The translations under genes were made by a program, and so were the position numbers. A stretch of 39,766 nucleotides of DNA from an uncultured Eubacteriales bacterium (GTDB lineage Bacteria > Bacillota > Clostridia > Christensenellales > UBA1242), in the NCBI GenBank assembly GCA_900321185.1, contig ONVD01000046.1, positions 1 through 39,766 on the forward strand. The letters are read 5' to 3'. How positions within the stretch are numbered: position 1 is the stretch's first letter; each line of letters begins with the position of its first letter. Positions 3,840-36,086 of the stretch are shown piece after piece. The notes below the pieces were generated by a model. It was not told the origin of the DNA, made no database searches, and saw only the letters and a program-made list of their open reading frames with translations.

Positions 3840-3939
3840 GGTCGATACATTGAGGTTGATTGTAAATTTTTTGTATAGATTTTGGTTAAACTAGTATTAA
3901 ATAACAAAATATTACCAATTGTTAAAAAGGAGGGAAGAT

Positions 3940-6900
3940 ATGTCTTTTAAAAAATCAGGTACTAACAAATCAAGTGCTGGTTTTTGGTTGACATTAGGTG
4001 TATGCGTTTTGTGCCTTTTTGTTGTTGCGCTGTCCTTTGTGTTGATTCCAAAGAACGAGACACAAAATGACAAGATGTTGGACACTACACTCACAAACCT
4101 TACTAATCAACCATTGGTGAACAAAAAAGGCTGGAACGCTTCGGTTTTATCTGACCTAAGAGATGCTAGTCAGCGCTATGGTGATAATGTTGCGCTAGGT
4201 AATGCTAATGGTGTGCAAGGTGTTTTGGTCTCTTTTGGTGGCTACACATGGGAAGTGGTATACATTCAAGATAATGTCATCACTCTTTATGCTTGTGACA
4301 GTGTGGCTACAATGGTTTTTGACGCGCAAGATTTGGATTATGCCAAAAGTAATGTCAGAGCATATCTTAACGATGAGTTTTATCCGCAATTATTAAAGAA
4401 TATTGGCTTTGCACAATTTGATGATTATGTGGTAGCTACTGGTGGCATTATGCCTAATTATCAAATACATGGGATGCAAAACGTAGAATTACTTACCACT
4501 GACAATCTATTGATACAAAACAACGACATATCTACCCAAGACAAAGTTTGGTTGCCAAGCGCTTATGAGGTAGGTGGCTTTTTGAATGGCGACAATGCCT
4601 CTACTGAGCGTGTTAATAGTTTTAATCTAGAGATTGTATCTAGTAAGAACGTAAGTACTGGACTATGGAATTTGTCTAGTACATGTCGTATGCTGGATAC
4701 CAGTGCATGTTTACGTTCTACTACTACTAATGGTGTGGTTTATATAGGTACAGATGGCAATCTGCTAAGTGGCGATTTGACCCAAACCTTTAGTATTCGC
4801 CCTGCTTTAAATATTATGATACCACAAAAAGCAGAGGACACAGGTAATCTAATCTCCAATTCGGTCAATTTAGCAATTACGGGATTGGGGACACAATCTA
4901 ATCCTTACACTATATCTACGGTGTCTGATTTACTAACATTGTCTAGCAATGTACTACAAGGTAATACGTATACAGGTAAATATATAGTTTTGAACAATGA
5001 TATAGACTTGTCAGGAGTGACTGTGTGGACTCCAATTGGTTTGTACAACAAAGGTACGGACTCAAAACCTTTTAGTGGGATATTTGATGGGCAAGGTTAT
5101 GTTGTGCGTCACGCATCTAGTGCCAACTCTGGACTAGTGGGGTTGTTTGGTTATGTCAGTGGCGGCACTATTAAAAACGTAGCAGTTTCAAATACAAATT
5201 GGTCTACCGCTGGAGATTATGCTGGTGGTGTAGTTAGTGTTATGGATAATGGAGCGACTCTAAGCGAGAGCTACAACAATAGTTCTGTTAGTGGTGCAAA
5301 ATATGTTGGTGGACTGACGGGGTATATAAATAATGCTACTATAATAAATGTTTATAACACTGGTGCTGTGGCTGGGAGCGATGCTGTTGGAGGCTTGGTA
5401 GGTCAAATATCCAGCGCTACCATAACCAACGCTTACAATATTGGTACAGTGAGTTCTAATAACGATGTTTTGGGAAGTGCTGGGACAGATTTTGGTGTGT
5501 CTAATACTTACTATACGAGCACTCAAACTCAATCTTATGGTACAAATTGTGATAGTTTAGATAGTTTACGCAGTGCGTCTACGTTTGTAGGATTTGACTT
5601 TTATTCTAGTACAAATTTAACTGGTGTATGGTTTAAGTCAAATATTCTAAATGACGGGTTTCCAACGCTAAAGATATTTGTAAAGCAAGTTGAGATAAAG
5701 CTGTACTCTAGTAATAATTCGGCTGGGGATTATTACGTAACTTTAGCAGACGCTAACACAAAATACAAATCTACCATATCTACGTTAGGTACAAACGCTA
5801 CATTTGTAGCACAATGTAGCAGTGGATATAGGTTCTTGGGGTGGTACACAATAATATTGTCTACTAGTGGTGCTCCAGTGCTTGGTTCGGATGAGGCTGT
5901 ACTGGTCAACGACGAGGCTCAATTTACAGAAGTTTTGACTGATTATGTCTATCTTGAGGCACGTTTTGTTAAGACGTATAATGTGAGTATCAGCACTTTA
6001 TATAGTGACTTTAGTACCAGTTACACCAACAATGATGCAGTCAGCGTGTCTTCGCAAGGAGTGAGCAATGGTAGTCAATATGACGTTAATGCTATATTGA
6101 CTATAACAGTAAAGACAGATATTCAAGAGTTAAGTTTTGTAGGATTGGGCTACAAGACTAGTGCTACATCCACCACTTACACATCTATTGGTACGGATTT
6201 AAACAATAATTATGGATATTGGACTAGTGTAACACAAAATGCAGATAGCATTGTGTACGTATTGACTGTAGGAGACGTAGATGCATTTACCACCGATGAG
6301 TTTGATATCCAAGTTCACTTTGAACGCCAATTGCAGTTAACTTTGGGCACTACGACTAACGGTACTGACCATACTCCAAGTGCGAGCGTTCAGTTTGGAG
6401 CAAATGGTGCACAAATTACTGCTAGTACTACAACAGTTAGCGATGTCTTTGTTTACAACATAACAGGTGGGCTAAGATTGTCTGTAGACTACACTAATGC
6501 AAGTGTCGACGGTGTGGCAATCTACAATCTTGACCATTGGACCTTAACTATTGATGGAGTTGATACTACGTTAGATTCTGATACGACTAGCATCAACATT
6601 GCTTCATGCATTCCTATAACAACTGATAATGACGATATTTTTGATATTACTCTTATAGCCAACTTTTTGTTGAATACACATACAGTCAGCGCAAACGTGG
6701 CACTTGGCACTGATTTGGCGTCTAATGATAGTGGAGTAAATAAACTTGCTAGTATCTATATTTTAGTCGGTTCGGGTGTTGATGTGAATAGCATTACTTC
6801 GGAACATCAAAGCATTTCTGTTGCATATGGCGCTTTGGTAAGTATTTGTTTTGTACCAAATTATGCATATGGTTATGAATATTTATCTCTTGCCGTGAAC

Positions 6901-8433
6901 GGAGAGGACGTTACTCCAGCACAGAATGACGATGGAGTTTACTATTATGACTTGACTGTAGGCACGTCTGCTGTGATAGGTGAGATAAAAGTTAAATATA
7001 TATTAATAAACATCCAACCATCTGTTGCAATGCTAAATAATGACGCTTACACTACCATTACAGATAATGTAAGTTGCGCTCCTACACAATTTACAAACAT
7101 TGATTTTTATACGGACATCAGTGCCTTGCAACTTAATATGGCAACTACCGACAACTTTTATATGTGTTATGGATTAAAACAACTAGAGGCATCTTTTGAT
7201 AATGGCACAACTTTTGTTTTAGTAAAAACATATGGCAATGAGGTTGCAAAAGCTCAGTATACGTTGTTTAATAGTGGGACTTTGGCTAGTCTTTTGTATC
7301 AACAAGCCAATACTGCGCTAAGCCCAACTACAAACACAGTTTTGTTGCGTGTTGTTATTTATCCTGTGAATACAACTTTGAATATAGTTGCTTATTACAA
7401 AGGCACATCTAGTGTTGTAGATGCTTCGGCATATACCTTGGAGTTGTCCAAAGACAATCAAATAACCTCCAATTTAACGGCACAACAATATAGTTATATA
7501 TTGGGTTCAAATGTTACTATTAATACAACCGCCTCAAATCTAGGGCATAAGGTTTTGGGTTATGGTACAAGTGCAAATATGAGTACAGGATTTTTTGGTA
7601 CTCAAGACTCGGATAATTATAAAAACACAAGTACTTACACATATACAATTACGCAAGATACTACGTTGTATGTGTACTTTGAACTGAGGACATTTAGTGT
7701 GGCATTTGAGTCTGATGCCAACACTTTGGCAAGTAGTAGTGCAACCTTACAATCTCAAGGTATAACAGCACGAGATTTGTCTAAGACTGGCAATTTGACA
7801 TTAAGTTTTGATAAAGATTCGACTACAACATCAACCATTAAAATGGATTATGGTCACACTTTAGCGTTTGGTGCTAATTCAACTACAACTATATCTAGTA
7901 TAGATTTGGTGTTAATGTCTATTGTTGTTCAAGATGTAGCGACAGGAACACAATTAGCACAATATGGGGCGACAACACTTGAGCATACATTTGTGATGCT
8001 AGAAGGTAGTGAACAAAACATTTATGATAGCATCAAAATTATGTTTACATACAACTACAAACAGACTGTTTACATAAAGATTGCTAGTAGCGTTACTGAT
8101 ACATCGCAATTGAATGGTGCAACAATTCAATTTAACAACCAAGATATTGTAGGCAACAGTACATCTGTAAAACTTAATGATAACGTCATTAACCAAGCTC
8201 AAACTAACACCAATGGTTATGGCGTTAGCCTAGTTGCAGATAGTGATGGTACAAAATATACAGCACTATTCTTGATGAATATTTCGTACAAAGTGACAAT
8301 TAGTGGTACAAGCACAAGCAGTACACAGTTTGAGCTTGAGCTAAAGAATGGTGAACCAGTAACATTTATCATTAACGAAGTAAAATTTGACAACAATGCA
8401 GTCAATATTAGTGGATATTTTGTATTTAGTTAG
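3940..8433 (+). CDS. Giant surface protein A: membrane-anchored, DUF6273-like, GLUG-like and InlB-type repeats
   Basis: This 1497-residue protein has one hydrophobic segment (15-36) after a basic N-terminus and no clear cleavage site, so it is probably an N-terminally anchored exported protein. Residues about 90-290 resemble the DUF6273 domain of Firmicutes surface proteins (GYTWEVVYI, VWLPSAYEV, closing SIRPALNI). Residues about 313-537 are a GLUG/right-handed-helix-like stretch (FSGIFDGQGYVVRH, then repeated GG(L/V)VG turns). The rest is beta-rich, Ser/Thr/Asn-rich repeats including an InlB-type unit (GYRFLGWYTI). No LPXTG motif, C-terminal membrane segment or known enzyme domain is seen. 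ATG 3940 is used because AAGGAGGG is 5 bases upstream; the in-frame TTG at 3919 has no such site. It heads a close unit with the PHP and surface protein B genes. Adhesion or envelope function is inferred. Confidence 0.78.
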   Translation: MSFKKSGTNKSSAGFWLTLGVCVLCLFVVALSFVLIPKNETQNDKMLDTTLTNLTNQPLVNKKGWNASVLSDLRDASQRYGDNVALGNANGVQGVLVSFGGYTWEVVYIQDNVITLYACDSVATMVFDAQDLDYAKSNVRAYLNDEFYPQLLKNIGFAQFDDYVVATGGIMPNYQIHGMQNVELLTTDNLLIQNNDISTQDKVWLPSAYEVGGFLNGDNASTERVNSFNLEIVSSKNVSTGLWNLSSTCRMLDTSACLRSTTTNGVVYIGTDGNLLSGDLTQTFSIRPALNIMIPQKAEDTGNLISNSVNLAITGLGTQSNPYTISTVSDLLTLSSNVLQGNTYTGKYIVLNNDIDLSGVTVWTPIGLYNKGTDSKPFSGIFDGQGYVVRHASSANSGLVGLFGYVSGGTIKNVAVSNTNWSTAGDYAGGVVSVMDNGATLSESYNNSSVSGAKYVGGLTGYINNATIINVYNTGAVAGSDAVGGLVGQISSATITNAYNIGTVSSNNDVLGSAGTDFGVSNTYYTSTQTQSYGTNCDSLDSLRSASTFVGFDFYSSTNLTGVWFKSNILNDGFPTLKIFVKQVEIKLYSSNNSAGDYYVTLADANTKYKSTISTLGTNATFVAQCSSGYRFLGWYTIILSTSGAPVLGSDEAVLVNDEAQFTEVLTDYVYLEARFVKTYNVSISTLYSDFSTSYTNNDAVSVSSQGVSNGSQYDVNAILTITVKTDIQELSFVGLGYKTSATSTTYTSIGTDLNNNYGYWTSVTQNADSIVYVLTVGDVDAFTTDEFDIQVHFERQLQLTLGTTTNGTDHTPSASVQFGANGAQITASTTTVSDVFVYNITGGLRLSVDYTNASVDGVAIYNLDHWTLTIDGVDTTLDSDTTSINIASCIPITTDNDDIFDITLIANFLLNTHTVSANVALGTDLASNDSGVNKLASIYILVGSGVDVNSITSEHQSISVAYGALVSICFVPNYAYGYEYLSLAVNGEDVTPAQNDDGVYYYDLTVGTSAVIGEIKVKYILINIQPSVAMLNNDAYTTITDNVSCAPTQFTNIDFYTDISALQLNMATTDNFYMCYGLKQLEASFDNGTTFVLVKTYGNEVAKAQYTLFNSGTLASLLYQQANTALSPTTNTVLLRVVIYPVNTTLNIVAYYKGTSSVVDASAYTLELSKDNQITSNLTAQQYSYILGSNVTINTTASNLGHKVLGYGTSANMSTGFFGTQDSDNYKNTSTYTYTITQDTTLYVYFELRTFSVAFESDANTLASSSATLQSQGITARDLSKTGNLTLSFDKDSTTTSTIKMDYGHTLAFGANSTTTISSIDLVLMSIVVQDVATGTQLAQYGATTLEHTFVMLEGSEQNIYDSIKIMFTYNYKQTVYIKIASSVTDTSQLNGATIQFNNQDIVGNSTSVKLNDNVINQAQTNTNGYGVSLVADSDGTKYTALFLMNISYKVTISGTSTSSTQFELELKNGEPVTFIINEVKFDNNAVNISGYFVFS

Positions 8434-9381: not shown

Positions 9382-12300
9382 ATGCCTACAAAATTAAAAC
9401 AAACCAAAAAGATTTGGATATTGTTTTTGACACTGTGTACAGCACTGTGCTTTTTTGGCATAATTTTTGCAACTAGAAATGTACAATCTAACCAGGCCAA
9501 TGCCGTCGAGACACCAACCGAACTAATTGACCTCAATGACGACACTGTACTCAGTCAATCATTTACTGGGGATAGTTTTAGCACGATAGATAGTATTAGT
9601 TCGTACAATGCTACGACCAACCCATATGCTATAAACAGTGTGAATGATTTGTTAAGACTGGCGTACTTGGTTAATGTGCAAAAGGATACGACCTATGCAA
9701 GGGCCAGTTATCAACTGACGACTCATCTAGATTTGTCTATGTACAACTGGGCACCTATTGGCGGGTTGTCCAGTACAGTAGATTCGGATGCAATTCCTTT
9801 TTCGGGAACATTTAATGGTAATGGATATTCCATCTATGGATTAACAATACAGAGATATTATGTGTCATCTAACGAAACAGTTGCCACATCTACAACGCAA
9901 CCAGATGATGATTACATTTGGGATAATACTACTGCTGGGTTGTTTGGTGCTGTTTGCTATACTACATATGAAAGCGGAGAAAACACATTGCAAGCCAAGC
10001 CAGTTATTAAACTATTAGGTATGGCTAACACAAACATTCACACAAACGCTTATTATGTAGGTGCTGTTGTAGGATATCTGTGTGGTAACATAGATGATAC
10101 AAATATCAAAATTAGTGGCACTACTGTTATGGATGCTACAGCGTCTTGTGTTGTTCAAGAATGCTATAACAATGGTGCGGTACATGGTGCAATGTACATT
10201 GGTGGTATAGCGGGATTGGTAGCGGATGGTGCAGTGTTGTTTAACTGTCTAAACACACAATCTGCGACTTTAGAGTTGTCAGACGTGACCTATGGCACTG
10301 ACAATGCTACTGGCAAAATTGCTATTTATGGCATACGAACAGATGCAAATGTGGGTGGCCTTGCTGGTGGTGCTCTTGAGAATACTACCAGCAATGTAAT
10401 AAGTAATTCCATCAATACCGCTACTGTAGCAAAATTGGGCAATGGTAATAACGTGGGTGGCATTGTGGGGTACTTCAAGTCATCAAAGGCGTCTTACACT
10501 CGTAATGCTTATTATGAGGATGCGGTCTATACGACAGATGTAAATACTGCGGGCGCTCGCAGAGATATTACTGGAATCAAACGCTATACATCATACAATA
10601 GTTATTGGTCTATTACTCGTATGGGTAGTACCGAATATTTACCATATTCTAGGGGTTCAGACCCAGATGCAATTTGGCATATAGGGGCTATGGTAAATGG
10701 TGGATTGCCATACTTGACACGTGTAAATATTTTGGCTAGGGTGGAACTAAATGTTGAGGCTATTGATAATGTAGTTCCTGCAAGTGTAAATTTTTATGGT
10801 TATGATACCAACGGTGTAAAACAAGCGGGCACCAATTGGTATACACCAATTATAAAGAGTGGGAACGTATTTTATATCGAGCAAGGTAAGAGTGTTGGTA
10901 TAGAAACATCTGCTACTACCGAAAATTCTGGTAAATATGAGTTTGTAGAATGGAGTGTGAACACTCTGCAAAGTAATGTTAGTGATTTTGGCACTAATAC
11001 AATGACTGCGGATATATTATTCTTGTCAACCGATAGTATTTTAACAGCGGTCTATCAGTACAAGTGCTACACCATAACTCTTGCTACAAATGACTCAAAG
11101 CAAGGTAATGTTGTATCTCAAGATTCGCAATCTAGTGATGCAGATAGCATTGATTGGGCAAATATAACATTTAGCACGGATTCTTGTATTAGTGTTAGGG
11201 TAGGTAATGTTTTGCGTCTTGTGGCACGTCCTAATGCAGGTTTTGCTTTACAATCAGTTGTTTCTAGCAATAGTGGGGAACTAACATTTGACAACAATCA
11301 ACTAGATATTGTAGTAAATAGTGATGACAACATTGTATTTACTTTTATTGCAAAAAAATATCAAGTAACGTTAGATTCTAGCAATAGTGATATTGCCAAT
11401 GTTACTTTTAGTATAGACGGAGTAGGCTCGATGACTAGTGGCACAGCTAGTTATGGTGCAGTAGTCACTATTAATATCGACGAATCCAGCCTAGCGACAA
11501 ATTATTATTTGGATAATTTTACAATATCTGCGGATGGCCTAGCACTAACTACTTTGGGTCGCGGTGTTAATACATTCGTAATCCAAGACTTTGATAATTA
11601 TGTCGTGGGTGTAGTATTTACAAAACAAACATACTCTGTCACTATTGTGCAATCTACAGATAAATATTCTGTTAGTTTTATTGAGCCCGCAACAACAGCA
11701 GTGCAATATAATGTTGACTTTGATGCAGAGTTTAGCGTAAAAGTTGACAACATAGCTACAGGATACCAGTTTGAGGGGTGGCTAGTCTCGTATGCAGGTG
11801 CAGACGACGAAACGTGGAATACAGATAACGCGATACTTACAAAGGTAGGTTTGAGTGGAGATTTAACTTTAACTCCGAAAGTAACGGTCAAAACTTTTGT
11901 TGTAAATATTGAGGCAAATGATAATGGAGCGGTAGATAACAATGGCGGACAAAATATTGCTTATGGCGAAACAGTGACAGTTAATGCTCTACCTAATACA
12001 GGCTATCAATTTGTCGAGTGGGTAGATAGTAATAATTCTCCATTGAGCCAAAATTCTTGTTATATTTTTGTTGTAGAGGATAATACAACTATCTATGCTA
12101 CATTCAAGTTGTCGACTTATAATTTGACATTTGATTGTTATGCAGACGATGGCACAACTTTTGGTGATGGTTGTGTTGTGTTGTCGGATGACAATACAAC
12201 GTATACATATGGCAGTACCGCAAACTTTTCTGCAACTTGCCCAGTAGGATATTCTTTTGATAGATGGGAACTTAACACTAACTTAACTGAAGGTAGTTAT

Positions 12301-13653
12301 CAACTCAATGTAGACGGTACAGGAGTTATTAACTCAATAGACAAAAATATTAGTTTGACAGCATATTTTAAATTGGATACATACAAAGTTACATTTAATA
12401 TCAATGACTTAAGATACGGTGACTTCCGCTTTAACTACAATGGTTGGACGTATTTTAGCCGAACATACGCCAGCACCGAGTACAAATATGCTTATAAAGA
12501 CACATTGCAAGTGATTGTGCTCAATCAAAATGAAACATCATATCCAGACGTTGCCAAAAATTTTGCATTTAGTTATTGGAGAATAAATGGTCAGCCATAT
12601 TCTACTGGTACAACTCTAAACATCTCAGTAACAAAGGACATGAATATCCAGGCTATTTACAAACCAGTAGATTATAAAATCACTATAACCAAAAATTATG
12701 AAAATGGAGCAACAATCAACGGCCTATCAAATGATTATTATACTTATGGTTCAAATTTGACATTGTCTGCAATAATTCATTCTGGCTATGAGTTTAATGG
12801 ATGGTATTTGTATGATAGCATTTCTCGCTCTTATAGATTGCTATCAAAAGAGGTGGATTGTGCTCTAAATGTAGATTCTGCTAAAACAGTTTTGTGCTCG
12901 TTATCCAAAGTTGGGAACGTTATTTCAAACGTCAATGACAATAATGCTGGTTCTGTGTCGGGTGCTGGCACTTACAAAGTGGGTAGTGTTATCACGTTAA
13001 CTGCTCATCCAAATGATGGTTTTGCATTTAGTTGTTGGAAGCAAAATGGTAAAGAGGTCTCAAGTCAATCGTCGCTGACAACTACCATAACTGACGAAGC
13101 ACAAAGTTTTGATGCGATATTTGTACCACAATTTAAGATTGCAGTCGTTGCCAATGACCAAAGTTATGGTTCGGTCAATATTGTGAGTGACAATACTACA
13201 GGTGACATTGTGCAATTGATAGCTGTTGCAAATAATAATTGTAGTTTTGTTGGGTGGTCATATAATAACGAAATCATCAGTACTGACGAGGTATATGCTT
13301 TAAATTTGAGTGGTGATCTGGCTCTTGAGGCGGTTTTTCAACGAGACTTTAACTGGGGCGTAGTTATCATAATCGTCGGATGTGTGTTGTTTGCTATTTT
13401 ACTACTTGTGGTTGTTATTCAATATATAAAAGCAAAAGAGGCAGAACCACTAAAGACTAGATTTATCCTAAAGAATATGGACGACAAAAATCTACTCACA
13501 CATAAAAAATCTAAATCCAAAAAAGGTAAGATATCTAGTGTGCCAGTTCGCAAAATAAACGCAAGTGATATCGAGCCAATTCCTGTTCGTAAGACATATA
13601 CAACACAAAAGACTTATAAAAAAGAAGACTCAACAAACAAAAAAACTAAATAA
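9382..13653 (+). CDS. Giant surface protein B: signal peptide, GLUG-like region, about nine InlB-type repeats, C-terminal membrane anchor
   Basis: The 1423-residue protein starts with a signal peptide (basic start, hydrophobic core 11-30, probable signal-peptidase site after ANA, residue 41). Residues about 75-390 are GLUG-like, with FSGTFNGNGYSIYGL and GG(I/L)(A/V)G turns. Residues about 450-1315 contain successive divergent InlB B-type repeats, each with a G-Y-x-F-x-x-W core (GYQFEGW, GYQFVEW, GYSFDRW, GYEFNGW, GFAFSCW and others) ending in xAxF. A single membrane helix (about 1325-1350) and a Lys-rich cytoplasmic tail of about 70 residues end the protein; no LPXTG is present. GAGGG lies upstream of the ATG. 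The architecture matches surface protein A except for the anchor, now at the C-terminus. A strong terminator follows. Role inferred: envelope or adhesion. Confidence 0.8.
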   Translation: MPTKLKQTKKIWILFLTLCTALCFFGIIFATRNVQSNQANAVETPTELIDLNDDTVLSQSFTGDSFSTIDSISSYNATTNPYAINSVNDLLRLAYLVNVQKDTTYARASYQLTTHLDLSMYNWAPIGGLSSTVDSDAIPFSGTFNGNGYSIYGLTIQRYYVSSNETVATSTTQPDDDYIWDNTTAGLFGAVCYTTYESGENTLQAKPVIKLLGMANTNIHTNAYYVGAVVGYLCGNIDDTNIKISGTTVMDATASCVVQECYNNGAVHGAMYIGGIAGLVADGAVLFNCLNTQSATLELSDVTYGTDNATGKIAIYGIRTDANVGGLAGGALENTTSNVISNSINTATVAKLGNGNNVGGIVGYFKSSKASYTRNAYYEDAVYTTDVNTAGARRDITGIKRYTSYNSYWSITRMGSTEYLPYSRGSDPDAIWHIGAMVNGGLPYLTRVNILARVELNVEAIDNVVPASVNFYGYDTNGVKQAGTNWYTPIIKSGNVFYIEQGKSVGIETSATTENSGKYEFVEWSVNTLQSNVSDFGTNTMTADILFLSTDSILTAVYQYKCYTITLATNDSKQGNVVSQDSQSSDADSIDWANITFSTDSCISVRVGNVLRLVARPNAGFALQSVVSSNSGELTFDNNQLDIVVNSDDNIVFTFIAKKYQVTLDSSNSDIANVTFSIDGVGSMTSGTASYGAVVTINIDESSLATNYYLDNFTISADGLALTTLGRGVNTFVIQDFDNYVVGVVFTKQTYSVTIVQSTDKYSVSFIEPATTAVQYNVDFDAEFSVKVDNIATGYQFEGWLVSYAGADDETWNTDNAILTKVGLSGDLTLTPKVTVKTFVVNIEANDNGAVDNNGGQNIAYGETVTVNALPNTGYQFVEWVDSNNSPLSQNSCYIFVVEDNTTIYATFKLSTYNLTFDCYADDGTTFGDGCVVLSDDNTTYTYGSTANFSATCPVGYSFDRWELNTNLTEGSYQLNVDGTGVINSIDKNISLTAYFKLDTYKVTFNINDLRYGDFRFNYNGWTYFSRTYASTEYKYAYKDTLQVIVLNQNETSYPDVAKNFAFSYWRINGQPYSTGTTLNISVTKDMNIQAIYKPVDYKITITKNYENGATINGLSNDYYTYGSNLTLSAIIHSGYEFNGWYLYDSISRSYRLLSKEVDCALNVDSAKTVLCSLSKVGNVISNVNDNNAGSVSGAGTYKVGSVITLTAHPNDGFAFSCWKQNGKEVSSQSSLTTTITDEAQSFDAIFVPQFKIAVVANDQSYGSVNIVSDNTTGDIVQLIAVANNNCSFVGWSYNNEIISTDEVYALNLSGDLALEAVFQRDFNWGVVIIIVGCVLFAILLLVVVIQYIKAKEAEPLKTRFILKNMDDKNLLTHKKSKSKKGKISSVPVRKINASDIEPIPVRKTYTTQKTYKKEDSTNKKTK

Positions 13654-17450: not shown

Positions 17451-17477
17451 TATCAAAATCAGTCTATGGGGGATTTA

Positions 17478-17993
17478 ATTATTAAGGATTTAATGATTAA
17501 TGAGCAAATCAATGCACGCGAAGTGCGTTTGCTCGGCGAGAATGGCGAACAACTTGGTATAGTGCCACTTGCCCAAGCATTGGAACAAGCAAAAGAACAA
17601 GGTAAAGATTTGGTAAACATTAACCCAAACGCTAAGCCGTCTGTTTGCAAAATTATGGACTATGGAAAATACAAGTTCATCGTTCAAAAACGCGAAAAAG
17701 AGGCCAAGAAAAAGCAAAAGGTTGCCGAAGTTAAGGATATGAAACTCAGTATCAATATTGAGGAGCATGACATGTTGTTTAAGGTTAAGGCTGTACAAAA
17801 GTTTTTGCGTGCTGGCGACAAGGTAAGAGTCTTTATCAAGGTTCATGGCCGTATGGCAAACTTTGCGCATTTTGGTATTGACAACATGAACAAGTTTTAC
17901 GAAATGGTCAAAGATGATGCTAACATGGATCAGGCTCCGTTGCTATCTGGCTCAATGATAACTATGGTGCTTTCTCCAAAGACAACAAAATAA
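17478..17993 (+). CDS. infC: Translation initiation factor IF-3 (AUU start)
   Basis: IF-3 binds the 30S subunit, keeps subunits apart and checks start codons. The protein has the N-domain (INEQINAREVRLLGENGEQL, NPNAKPSVCKIMDYGKYKF), a Lys-rich linker and the C-domain (KLSINIEEHDMLFKVK, VFIKVHGRMANF). The start is placed at ATT 17478, in line with the Bacillus subtilis IF-3 N-terminus and 5 bases after a GGGGG ribosome-binding site; ATT 17481 is also possible. Upstream in-frame ATGs are at 17466, which lies in the ribosome-binding site, and at 17409, which precedes the attenuator hairpin. infC is classically autoregulated by IF-3 through an AUU-type start. It is the first gene of infC-rpmI-rplT. 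Confidence 0.95.
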   Translation: MIKDLMINEQINAREVRLLGENGEQLGIVPLAQALEQAKEQGKDLVNINPNAKPSVCKIMDYGKYKFIVQKREKEAKKKQKVAEVKDMKLSINIEEHDMLFKVKAVQKFLRAGDKVRVFIKVHGRMANFAHFGIDNMNKFYEMVKDDANMDQAPLLSGSMITMVLSPKTTK

Positions 17994-32321: not shown

Positions 32322-34517
32322 ATGATTGCCGAGGTGATTGTTGATATCGCCAACTCTAATGTTGACAAAGTGTTTGATTATCTAGCTAAAGATGATACTA
32401 AACTTGGTAGTCGTGTAAGTATTCCTTTTGGAAAACGCACCATAGAGGGATACGTAATAGGATTAAAAACTACTAGTGATGTGCCAGCGGATAAACTAAA
32501 AAAAATAGGTGATTGCATAGATGATTATCCAGTGCTTACTCAAGAGTTGATAGATTTGGGTGATTTTATGTGTGCAACGAATCATTTGAGGCGCGTCGAT
32601 TGTATGCGCCTTTTTGTGCCTAGCCAATTACGTTCTCAAAAAACAAAGCCTTTGTTGATAAATTACGTCAAAACTTCGGATACTTTTGACAAACAAGCAC
32701 TTTTACAAGATGTTCGTGCCAATGCTACAAAACAGCGACAACTGATTGAATATTTGGAACCAACCAAAGAATATGCTCATGCGGAGTTATGCAAAAAGTT
32801 TGGGGCAAACAATATCTCCAAACTGTTAAGTATGGGTAGTCTTGTGACTTTGCAGAGGCACAAATTACGTAAACCTTATGTAGTAGACAAACTTGACAAG
32901 AGAGTGACGTTGACTGATAGTCAACAAAAGGTTGTGGATGATATTTTGTCTAATAGGCAAGGTGTACATCTAATCTTTGGAGTAACAGGTAGTGGTAAAA
33001 CCGAGGTCTACATGCATATTATTGCTCAAATCATTAGCGAGGGCAAGACTGCAATATTGCTAGTACCAGAGATATCTCTTACTCCACAAGTAATGGGCAA
33101 TTTTAAGGCACGTTTTGGTGATAATGTTGCTTTGTTGCATAGTGGTTTGAGTGATGGCGAAAGATTTGATGAATGGCAACGTATACGTGAAGGCGATGTC
33201 AAGATTGTGATAGGGGCGCGCAGTGCAATATTTGCACCATTAAAAAACATAGGTGCTATCATTTTGGATGAAGAGCATGACCCTAGTTACAAGTCTGAAA
33301 GTAACCCAAGATATCTCACGCATGATGTTGCTAAATTTCGTGCAGAATACAATCATTGTCCGTTGATTTTGGGTAGTGCTACGCCGTCATTAGAGAGTTT
33401 TTATAAGGCGAAACAGCAAGAGTATTTTTTACACGAATTACCTGTAAGAGCAAACAATAAGGCAATGCCTACCATACAGGTTGTAAATATGTGTGACGAA
33501 GTATTAAACGGTAATACTGGTATGTTTTCGCAACAGCTTCTAAATGACTTAACTTCTTGTGTTAGCAATAACAATCAAGCAATGTTATTTATCAACAGAC
33601 GTGGGCACAGTAGTTATATGATTTGTCGCGAATGTGGTTATATTCCCAAGTGCGAAGATTGTGATGTATCATTAGTGTATCACAGTGAAGATAATCAATT
33701 AAAATGCCATTACTGCAACAAACGTTACAAAGCTCTAACCAATTGCCCTAATTGTGGTAGTAGTTATATTCGTTATGGTACTATGGGTACACAAAGGGTA
33801 GTGGCAGAGTTACGTAAAATTTTTCCCAATGTCAAAATTTTGCGTATGGATAATGATACCACATCCACCAAAAACGCTCTAACAACATTGTTAACAGAAT
33901 TTGCTAACACCAAACCCTGTATTTTGGTGGGGACCCAAATGATAGCAAAAGGGCATGATTTTCCAGATGTTACACTTGTGGGTGTAATGAACGCAGATAT
34001 GAGTTTGCATTATAGCGATTTTCGTAGCCCCGAGCGTACATTTGAGCTAATCACTCAGGTGGCGGGTCGTGCTGGACGTGCAGACAAGGCGGGTAAAGTT
34101 GTTATTCAGACATATACACCTAGGCACTATATCTACAGATTCGTTGCAAACTACAATTACGAAGGTTTTTATAACAAAGAGATTAACTTGCGCCAAGTAA
34201 CGTCGTTTCCTCCATTCGCAAAAATCTTTCGCATTTTAATCTCAGGTGAAGACGAGGATAAGGTTAAGACCACAACAAAGGTAATTTTTGATAAAATAAA
34301 AGCTATCAAAAAGATGTTCTCTAGTGAGTTTTTGTATTATGAAGCGATGAAGTCACCTATAGGTCGCATTGAAAAAAAGTTTAGATATCAAATTTTAATG
34401 CGCATAAAACCTACTTATCAAGCGAAGATAGAAAAAGATGTCTACCAAATTGTAGATGACATTCACCCCAACGGTATACAGCTTTTTATTGAAGTTAACC
34501 CGTCAAATTTGTCATAG
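32322..34517 (+). CDS. priA: Primosomal protein N' (PriA helicase)
   Basis: PriA restarts collapsed replication forks. The 731-residue protein has the N-terminal 3'-binding domain (VSIPFGKRTIEGYVIGL), Walker A GVTGSGKTEVYM, Walker B LDEEHDPSYKS, an eight-Cys zinc region (CRECGYIPKCEDCD, CHYC, CPNCG) within the helicase core, and the late motif QVAGRAGRADK. Length and order are normal. The next gene in most Firmicutes would be def; here rsgA follows after 50 bases. Confidence 0.98.
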   Translation: MIAEVIVDIANSNVDKVFDYLAKDDTKLGSRVSIPFGKRTIEGYVIGLKTTSDVPADKLKKIGDCIDDYPVLTQELIDLGDFMCATNHLRRVDCMRLFVPSQLRSQKTKPLLINYVKTSDTFDKQALLQDVRANATKQRQLIEYLEPTKEYAHAELCKKFGANNISKLLSMGSLVTLQRHKLRKPYVVDKLDKRVTLTDSQQKVVDDILSNRQGVHLIFGVTGSGKTEVYMHIIAQIISEGKTAILLVPEISLTPQVMGNFKARFGDNVALLHSGLSDGERFDEWQRIREGDVKIVIGARSAIFAPLKNIGAIILDEEHDPSYKSESNPRYLTHDVAKFRAEYNHCPLILGSATPSLESFYKAKQQEYFLHELPVRANNKAMPTIQVVNMCDEVLNGNTGMFSQQLLNDLTSCVSNNNQAMLFINRRGHSSYMICRECGYIPKCEDCDVSLVYHSEDNQLKCHYCNKRYKALTNCPNCGSSYIRYGTMGTQRVVAELRKIFPNVKILRMDNDTTSTKNALTTLLTEFANTKPCILVGTQMIAKGHDFPDVTLVGVMNADMSLHYSDFRSPERTFELITQVAGRAGRADKAGKVVIQTYTPRHYIYRFVANYNYEGFYNKEINLRQVTSFPPFAKIFRILISGEDEDKVKTTTKVIFDKIKAIKKMFSSEFLYYEAMKSPIGRIEKKFRYQILMRIKPTYQAKIEKDVYQIVDDIHPNGIQLFIEVNPSNLS

Positions 34518-34567
34518 TATATTGCATAAATATACACATTCTTGAATAAATATAGGAGAATACTAAA

Positions 34568-35434
34568 ATTATTGGTCAAGTTTTTAAAGGCGTAGCTGGT
34601 AAGTATCAAGTATACGCAAACAGTCAGATTTTTGATAATGTGAGTGCTCGCAAAAAGTTAAGGTATGCAAAATTATTTGTTGGCGACTATGTTGATTTTG
34701 ATGCTGAACATAATGTGATAAATAGTGTATACGAGCGTAAAAATAGCATTATACGTCCACCACTTGCTAATGTAGACAAGATGTTTGTGGTGATTGCTCC
34801 CAGACCTATACCAGACTTTATGCTGGTAGATAAGTTGATTGTACAATGTATACAAAACAATATAGAACCTATCTTAATAATTAACAAAGTCGATATTGCT
34901 AGCAAAGAGTTTTTACAAGATGTGCATACACAATACGAGCAAGCACTTAAAATTATTGAATGTGTAGCGCTAAATAATGAAGGACTGGAAATTTTATCCA
35001 AAGAATTAAGTGACAGTTTGTCTATATTTGTAGGACAGTCGGCGGTTGGTAAGAGTAGTCTTATTAATATGCTAGTACCTAATGCATTACGCACCATTGG
35101 CGAATTATCCAACAAAACTGCACGTGGCAAAAACTGCACACGTGAGTCGCAAATATATGTGTTGGATAATGGTGCTAGGATTGCTGATACCACAGGGTTT
35201 AGTCTACTAGAATTAAAAGATATCTCCAAAGAGCAATTAAGCGATTGTTATGCAGAGATAAAAAAGTTTAGTGTAGATTGTGCTTTCAATACTTGCAATC
35301 ACATAGGTGAATCCGAAAAGATTTGTGCCGTAAAACGAGCAGTTGCAGACGGTAAGATACCTCAAAAACGTTTTTTACGTTACACGCAGTTGTTCAATGA
35401 GATAAAGCAACAGGAGGAAAAAAGATATGGCTAA
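34568..35434 (+). CDS. rsgA: Ribosome small subunit GTPase RsgA (apparent AUU start)
   Basis: RsgA is a circularly permuted GTPase that checks late 30S assembly. From ATT 34568 the protein has 288 residues: OB-fold start IGQVFKGVAGKYQV, then VGDYVDF, G4 NKVD (106-109), G1 GQSAVGKSS (156-164), G3 DTTGF (207-211; usually DTPGF), and a zinc site C238, C243, H245, C253. No ATG, GTG or TTG exists between the upstream in-frame stop (34553-34555) and GTG 34640, which would cut away the first 24 residues of the OB-fold. AGGAG at 34554-34558 is 9 bases before ATT 34568, so AUU is the best start. It overlaps rpe by 8 bases. Confidence 0.93.
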   Translation: MIGQVFKGVAGKYQVYANSQIFDNVSARKKLRYAKLFVGDYVDFDAEHNVINSVYERKNSIIRPPLANVDKMFVVIAPRPIPDFMLVDKLIVQCIQNNIEPILIINKVDIASKEFLQDVHTQYEQALKIIECVALNNEGLEILSKELSDSLSIFVGQSAVGKSSLINMLVPNALRTIGELSNKTARGKNCTRESQIYVLDNGARIADTTGFSLLELKDISKEQLSDCYAEIKKFSVDCAFNTCNHIGESEKICAVKRAVADGKIPQKRFLRYTQLFNEIKQQEEKRYG

Positions 35435-36086
35435 AGTTTTGGTAGCGCCAAGCACGTTAGCGTGTCCATTGGTCGAAATGACAGATTATTTGCAAGTGCT
35501 AAAGACCGCAAATGCGGATTGGTTGCATTGTGATATTATGGATGGAAAGTTCGTACCAAACAAAACTTTTGATGACATCACTTTGTCGTTAATAACAAAA
35601 AAAACGGACTTGTACATAGATGTACATCTTATGGTCGAAAGGCCACGATTACTGCTTTCTAGATATATTCGTGCAGGAGCACAGGGCATATCTATACATT
35701 ACGAAGCATTTAAAAGTAGGTTGGAGCTTATTGATACGCTAAAAATTATGCGCAACCTTGGACTAAAGGTGGGCTTAGCTATAAAACCTAACACGACTAT
35801 TAACGAAGTATCAACCTTGCTCTCGCTAATAGATGTCTTGTTAATTATGTCAGTTGAACCTGGGTTTGGTGGGCAAAAGTTCATATTGGGCACACTCACT
35901 AAGATTATGGAAGCAAAGCGCATGCGTGAGGAAAAAGGCTTGCATTATCTTATCGAGGTTGACGGTGGTATTAATATTGATAACGCTAGAGCAGTTGTGG
36001 GCGCTGGTGCTGACGTTATGGTATGCGGTAGCGCGTTGTACAAAGCTGAAAATCGTATTGAGTATGTAGCAAAACTTAAAGGTTAG
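35427..36086 (+). CDS. rpe: Ribulose-phosphate 3-epimerase
   Basis: Rpe interconverts ribulose 5-phosphate and xylulose 5-phosphate. The 219-residue TIM barrel has the conserved segments VAPSTLACP, LHCDIMDGKFVPN, VHLMVERP, MSVEPGFGGQKF and EVDGGIN. The metal ligands His, Asp, His and Asp appear in place. Its start overlaps the rsgA stop by 8 bases, with CAGGAGG 9 bases upstream inside rsgA, so the pair is probably translationally coupled. The rsgA-rpe order is common in Firmicutes. Confidence 0.97.
   Translation: MAKVLVAPSTLACPLVEMTDYLQVLKTANADWLHCDIMDGKFVPNKTFDDITLSLITKKTDLYIDVHLMVERPRLLLSRYIRAGAQGISIHYEAFKSRLELIDTLKIMRNLGLKVGLAIKPNTTINEVSTLLSLIDVLLIMSVEPGFGGQKFILGTLTKIMEAKRMREEKGLHYLIEVDGGINIDNARAVVGAGADVMVCGSALYKAENRIEYVAKLKG

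Follow-up and report, generated by a model that had tools for sequence, protein, structure and literature searches.

Initiation factor 3 (IF3), the product of infC, discriminates against and represses its own AUU start codon (PMC9410913), and start codons of this class are already known as a kind from infC, pcnB, cvfC1, ccpN, citZ and lepA. In S. aureus, AUU and AUA starts yield about 10–30% of the output of AUG, and the non-canonical starts of cvfC1 (AUU), ccpN (AUA) and citZ (AUA) have extended Shine-Dalgarno motifs, with the starts of cvfC1 and ccpN being conserved in relatives (PMC13009471). Translation of E. coli pcnB is limited by its AUU codon and expression is low, according to work cited in PMC13009471. 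Full-length LepA probably requires an AUU start in two species (isolated cases drawn from annotation), and deletions of lepA and rsgA interact in E. coli. For sigR of Streptomyces, a GTC start and IF3-mediated repression are reported (PMC5472188). An earlier note on the DNA analyzed here had called AUU a codon class normally reserved for infC, which is too strong in view of pcnB, cvfC1, ccpN, citZ and probably lepA. A search of the open-licence literature for rsgA together with the single phrase 'AUU start codon' found no paper that joined the two.

The DNA is a 39,766-nucleotide stretch (hereafter, the window) from an uncultured Eubacteriales bacterium, whose genome assembly is a 906-kb draft in 60 contigs and whose family we coded f1. 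In the gene order priA–rsgA–rpe (Table 1), 50 bases separate the priA stop from the rsgA start, and the rpe ATG overlaps the rsgA stop (ATGGCTAA). The rsgA product matches TIGR00157 at 190.7 bits (cut-off 100) over positions 2–246 of 247 and PF03193 at 134.7 bits, and the PDB RsgA chains 1t9h (which we take to be that of B. subtilis) and 6zhl give near full-length alignments beginning at residue 3; its OB-fold, circularly permuted GTPase and zinc-finger arrangement place it in the RsgA/YjeQ/YloQ family. As the earlier note had reported, the frame contains no ATG, GTG or TTG between the upstream TAG and the GTG at residue 25, and an AGGAG lies nine bases before an ATT; we confirmed these coordinates and observed a second ATT (34571–34573) directly after the first. 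RNA structure around the start was unremarkable (z 0.23), with no structured leader found; Rfam models run on the whole window returned two tRNAs only and no element near rsgA, and we looked for but did not find a convincing promoter. Elsewhere in the window are two very long repetitive proteins of 1504 and 1423 residues (3919–8433 and 9382–13653), both with N-terminal signal-like segments and the second also with a C-terminal membrane segment, which look like surface proteins and would be a heavy load in a 0.9-Mb genome.

Table 1. Coordinates in the window of rsgA, its neighbors and infC.
Feature	Position	Strand	Remarks
priA, upstream of rsgA	32322..34517	+	PF17764, PF18074 and others
In-frame stop TAG bounding the rsgA frame upstream	34553..34555	+	
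Shine-Dalgarno AGGAG of rsgA	34554..34558	+	9 bases (34559–34567) before AUU
rsgA (ribosome small-subunit-dependent GTPase A)	34568..35434	+	288 codons from AUU plus stop TAA
Inferred start codon AUU of rsgA	34568..34570	+	comparison of the homologous column
First canonical start codon in the rsgA frame (GTG, residue 25)	34640..34642	+	rejected as start
rpe, downstream of rsgA	35427..36086	+	PF00834, 201.7 bits
Shine-Dalgarno GGGGG of infC	17468..17472	+	AGGAGG here in many relatives
infC (IF3), inferred AUU start	17481..17993	+	TIGR00168, 186.1 bits; family alignment

We detected rsgA in 84 of the 147 genomes of family f1 and could read its 5′ end in 70 of these; adding 50 genomes from other families of the order, we aligned a total of 115 genes automatically, with start calls that are comparative, from genomes that are mostly drafts. 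The other 63 family genomes, several of them 96–99% complete (genera g2, g12 and g17 included), had no RsgA match and have apparently either lost the gene or let it diverge strongly. Five rsgA-type matches (in G412, G353, G107, G236 and G641) each contain one internal stop (TAA, TAG or TGA), for which sequencing errors, decay and recoding are alternative explanations.

Among the 115 genes, 27 had no ATG, GTG or TTG (NTG) at any codon between the upstream stop and the conserved core. At the column of the window's ATT, which sits two codons before a conserved Gly and is flanked by freely varying codons, these 27 carried ATT (17), ATC (5), ATA (3), GTT (1) or GAT (1), whereas 32 other rsgA genes had ATG (17), TTG (8) or GTG (7) at the very same column. 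AUU, AUC or AUA (AUH) in 25 of 27 genes, with a Shine-Dalgarno and no NTG available, therefore occupies the exact position of the ordinary start. In the two exceptions (G111 and G052, with GTT/GAT at the column) the start would have to be one codon later (ATC, ATA). The strict AUH cases span three families: eight genera of the bacterium's own (g1, g41, g14, g9, g33, g24, g8 and g5) plus families f25 and f31, which answers affirmatively whether the codon class is conserved in related genomes. Six more genomes (G044, G144, G124, G024, G290 and G302) probably belong with them, as their sole NTG lies in, before or too near the Shine-Dalgarno. Predicted Shine-Dalgarno pairing averaged −8.7 kcal/mol for AUH genes versus −6.8 kcal/mol for those with a canonical codon at the column (p = 0.03, uncorrected for relatedness), and AUU, AUC, AUA and TTG swapped with one another at or beside the start among relatives. 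Most families of the order start rsgA with ATG, GTG or TTG, and the AUH state is lineage-specific.

Could the ATT be a mistaken reading of the locus? The window's assembly is a fragmented draft, and the earlier note had held that ATG in related genomes would point to a sequencing error or a strain variant. ATG is indeed present at this codon in more distant relatives, but not in the nearest ones: G001, of the same genus and only 62% identical, carries it at the same codon behind the same AGGAG at the same spacing, and independent assemblies from several genera carry ATT, ATC or ATA there. A sequencing or assembly error that hides a true ATG is thereby ruled out, as is a strain variant, and we assign the former a negligible probability. 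Translation might instead truly begin at GTG 34640, the first standard in-frame start and the one that a gene caller would choose, giving an RsgA that lacks its first strand. The codons upstream of this GTG evolve like coding sequence, however: residues 3–15 (GQVFKGVAGKYQV) are identical in the window and G001, while 6 of their 13 codons differ, every change being synonymous. Because the 1t9h and 6zhl alignments already begin at residue 3, the residues upstream of the GTG form part of the N-terminal domain. The codon aligned to the GTG is GCA, GTA, TGT and the like in 18 relatives and NTG in only one, and we found no Shine-Dalgarno before it. Together, the synonymous changes, the missing conservation and the missing Shine-Dalgarno led us to reject the downstream start, which we regard as very improbable. 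More generally, the next canonical codon in AUH rsgA genes falls mostly at residues 9–41 without a properly placed Shine-Dalgarno, and the rsgA of G025 has no canonical start within its first 120 codons. In such genomes, an rsgA annotated automatically would therefore lack the opening segment of the OB-fold (residues 1–24 here).

On an rsgA tree built leaving out the start region, the AUH trait required 11 changes, compared with 26 in shuffles, and was therefore clustered; at least six of the 11 changes were forced by strongly supported branches. The AUH start thus seems to persist over long stretches and to have been gained or lost several times. Because the trait flips in this way and most families have NTG, any regulatory link through rsgA would not be universal. 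Beyond the order, we searched 243 genomes of the class and 398 of the phylum with a degenerate DNA pattern that is too insensitive to give a frequency. One genome outside the order, G578, had GGAGG-N8-ATT at the homologous rsgA start (G578:C1:1791624-1791659, minus strand), a hint that AUH starts of rsgA may occur more widely. Pattern matches in G466, G572, G590 and G458 were excluded as rsgA starts, and that in G444 proved to be a normal ATG start. Phylum-level matches in G678, G737, G860 and G1010 resemble that of G578 and are candidate rsgA starts.

The earlier note had also placed an AUU start on infC in the same genome. The codon stood but its position shifted: alignment to 28 family genomes put the start at 17481, rather than at 17478 (also AUU), because the conserved start directly precedes AAR-GAN. 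At the aligned position, ATT or ATA is found in nearly all 29 family genomes. Departures from this rule (L198 and L199) are G043, with an apparent CTG start (GGAGGAAACTAAA CTG AAA GAC), and G022, in which the start is less clear.

How unusual such starts are was gauged with two screens. The first compared 716 kb of the bacterium's own genome with 738 kb of G001, yielding 366 non-overlapping, 5′-closed ortholog frames, of which rsgA alone, among protein genes, combined 15 or more conserved residues before the first NTG in both genomes with the lack of a normal start. The other matches of this length proved to be tRNA shadows or antisense frames, apart from a single gene whose conserved leader is followed by an ordinary ATG. 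The second, in a genome of another genus (G048; 400 kb, 153 genes with homologs), found exactly three genes with at least 10 coding residues before the first NTG: a flippase (ATA), rsgA (ATT) and infC (ATT). Because a gene with a chance NTG nearby, such as infC in the bacterium's own genome, escapes this kind of screen, the count is a lower bound. A separate, Shine-Dalgarno-scored search yielded rplS as a false lead, with an ATT directly before its ATG; this ATT-ATG (L080:12464, L139) does not differ between the two genomes of the genus, and GGAGGTGA lies at a distance that would suit either codon. A membrane protein on contig C3 of G048 (L251–L261; TTAGGAGTGTAGCC ATT TTT AGT), without a nearby NTG, is a possible further AUU-start gene. 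Proteins of one stretch shared by the bacterium's own genome (C29, L100) and G001 (C17, L148) are 98–100% identical, where other orthologs are often 50–90% identical; this points to a mobile element that the two came to share recently, or else to cross-contamination.

The flippase, which is SpoVB/MurJ-like (TIGR02900 216.8 bits, below the cut-off of 372.3), has a conserved GGAGG-ATA in both the bacterium's own genome and G001, and would be a third AUH-start gene besides infC and rsgA, with no evident link to 30S maturation. Its start is ATT, ATA or ATC in many AUH-rsgA genomes and ATG, TTG or GTG in others: scored by eye and uncorrected for relatedness, 16 of 23 AUH-rsgA genomes had an AUH flippase start, compared with none of six canonical-rsgA genomes (Fisher p = 0.004). 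The gene lies on contig C54 of the bacterium's own genome (L124:17224-18741), and in many genomes of the family its AUA, AUU or AUC follows a strong Shine-Dalgarno (L201–L229).

We conclude that rsgA is almost certainly translated from AUU 34568. The conservation of the start column, the coding N terminus and the rarity of AUH starts (infC, rsgA and the flippase) make it likely that the NTG of the homologous codon was replaced by AUU, AUC or AUA and that selection maintains a weak, discriminated start, suggesting that the cell purposely makes little RsgA and may adjust the amount to IF3. The full reading, in which an AUU start selected for its weakness places rsgA under IF3 control, is in our judgment the best explanation, at a probability of roughly 0.6. 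Initiation at this codon in vivo, the IF3 response and its physiological purpose are all points that we infer.

The same features might arise if start choice had been relaxed throughout the lineage, through an altered IF3, initiator tRNA or 16S rRNA, so that AUH codons simply drift in. AUH starts in three different genes, and their co-occurrence in rsgA and the flippase, are what such relaxation would produce, but in G048 just three of the 153 genes with homologs are affected, and a similarly small number of the 366 own-genus pairs, and the AUH-start genes are the same ones across genera; we consider it improbable. The main rival to IF3 control is that the AUU merely keeps RsgA steadily scarce, in the way suggested for pcnB, with any IF3 effect incidental and no feedback from ribosome assembly. 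The limitation of E. coli pcnB by its AUU, as related in PMC13009471, sets a precedent; the interchange of AUU, AUC, AUA and TTG among relatives is expected if weakness alone matters, and the flippase has AUH starts in the same genomes. Against it, a poor Shine-Dalgarno or a GTG or TTG start would have been a simpler route to low expression, yet these genes keep a good Shine-Dalgarno with an AUH codon, the architecture of infC. We regard constant low expression as a serious minority possibility, and IF3 control as the best mechanism.

IF3 control of RsgA yield through the AUU, by a mechanism like that of infC, has in our estimate about an even chance of being correct. The good Shine-Dalgarno would place the 30S subunit on the rsgA mRNA, and IF3 would destabilize initiator-tRNA pairing at the AUU, keeping RsgA yield low. 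With much free IF3 on mature 30S subunits the yield would fall further, and when IF3 was scarce or 30S assembly disturbed, initiation at AUU and with it RsgA would rise. RbfA leaves the 30S subunit either by RsgA-mediated release or by displacement by IF3 (PMC13246957), and its release by IF3 occurs on mature subunits and not immature ones (PMC9032327). Because RbfA can be released by either IF3 or RsgA, a homeostatic loop would form: with plentiful IF3, RbfA would be displaced by IF3 and less RsgA needed, and with scarce IF3, RsgA would take over. The earlier note's proposal that rsgA is tied to IF3 and mature 30S is thus plausible, since IF3 discriminates against AUU and both factors release RbfA, and the AUU-type start of infC in the same genome (17481) lends it support. 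A broader scheme, which we consider speculative and rather unlikely, is that infC, rsgA and the flippase form a set read out jointly by initiation stringency, with free IF3 on mature 30S holding down the expression of all three genes, which would rise when IF3 ran short or 30S subunits were immature; start-codon choice would then be a global sensor coupling quality control of 30S assembly, IF3 supply and envelope synthesis.

If the preferred reading of IF3 control is right, AUU-class starts are more than one-off curiosities: in this lineage the gene of the 30S assembly checkpoint retains one alongside the classic example on infC, and rsgA would give a naturally occurring system in which IF3 control over a ribosome-assembly factor can be tested directly. 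A close counterpart is infC itself, with AUU autocontrol known from E. coli and Firmicutes, which in the same window and in nearly all family genomes combines AUU/AUA with a good Shine-Dalgarno and whose product, like RsgA, acts on the 30S subunit; the differences are that rsgA encodes an assembly GTPase, such that control would act on a gene other than that of IF3, and that its AUH start is kept in only part of the lineage. Like rsgA, pcnB is a non-infC gene with an AUU that lowers translation, but it has another function, and in the literature on its start we found no report of a comparable phylogenetic spread. The cvfC1, ccpN and citZ starts are also non-canonical, and their extended motifs fit the somewhat stronger Shine-Dalgarno at AUH rsgA genes, although these genes are metabolic or virulence-linked and PMC13009471 does not mention rsgA. 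LepA is likewise a ribosome-associated GTPase with a probable AUU start, but a translational one. In sigR, a gene besides infC is reported to be controlled by IF3 by way of a non-canonical start (PMC5472188), which for rsgA is our proposal, with the differences that the codon is GTC and the product a stress sigma factor. By these comparisons, rsgA appears as an addition to the known AUU-class genes, one with unusually broad, lineage-wide conservation.
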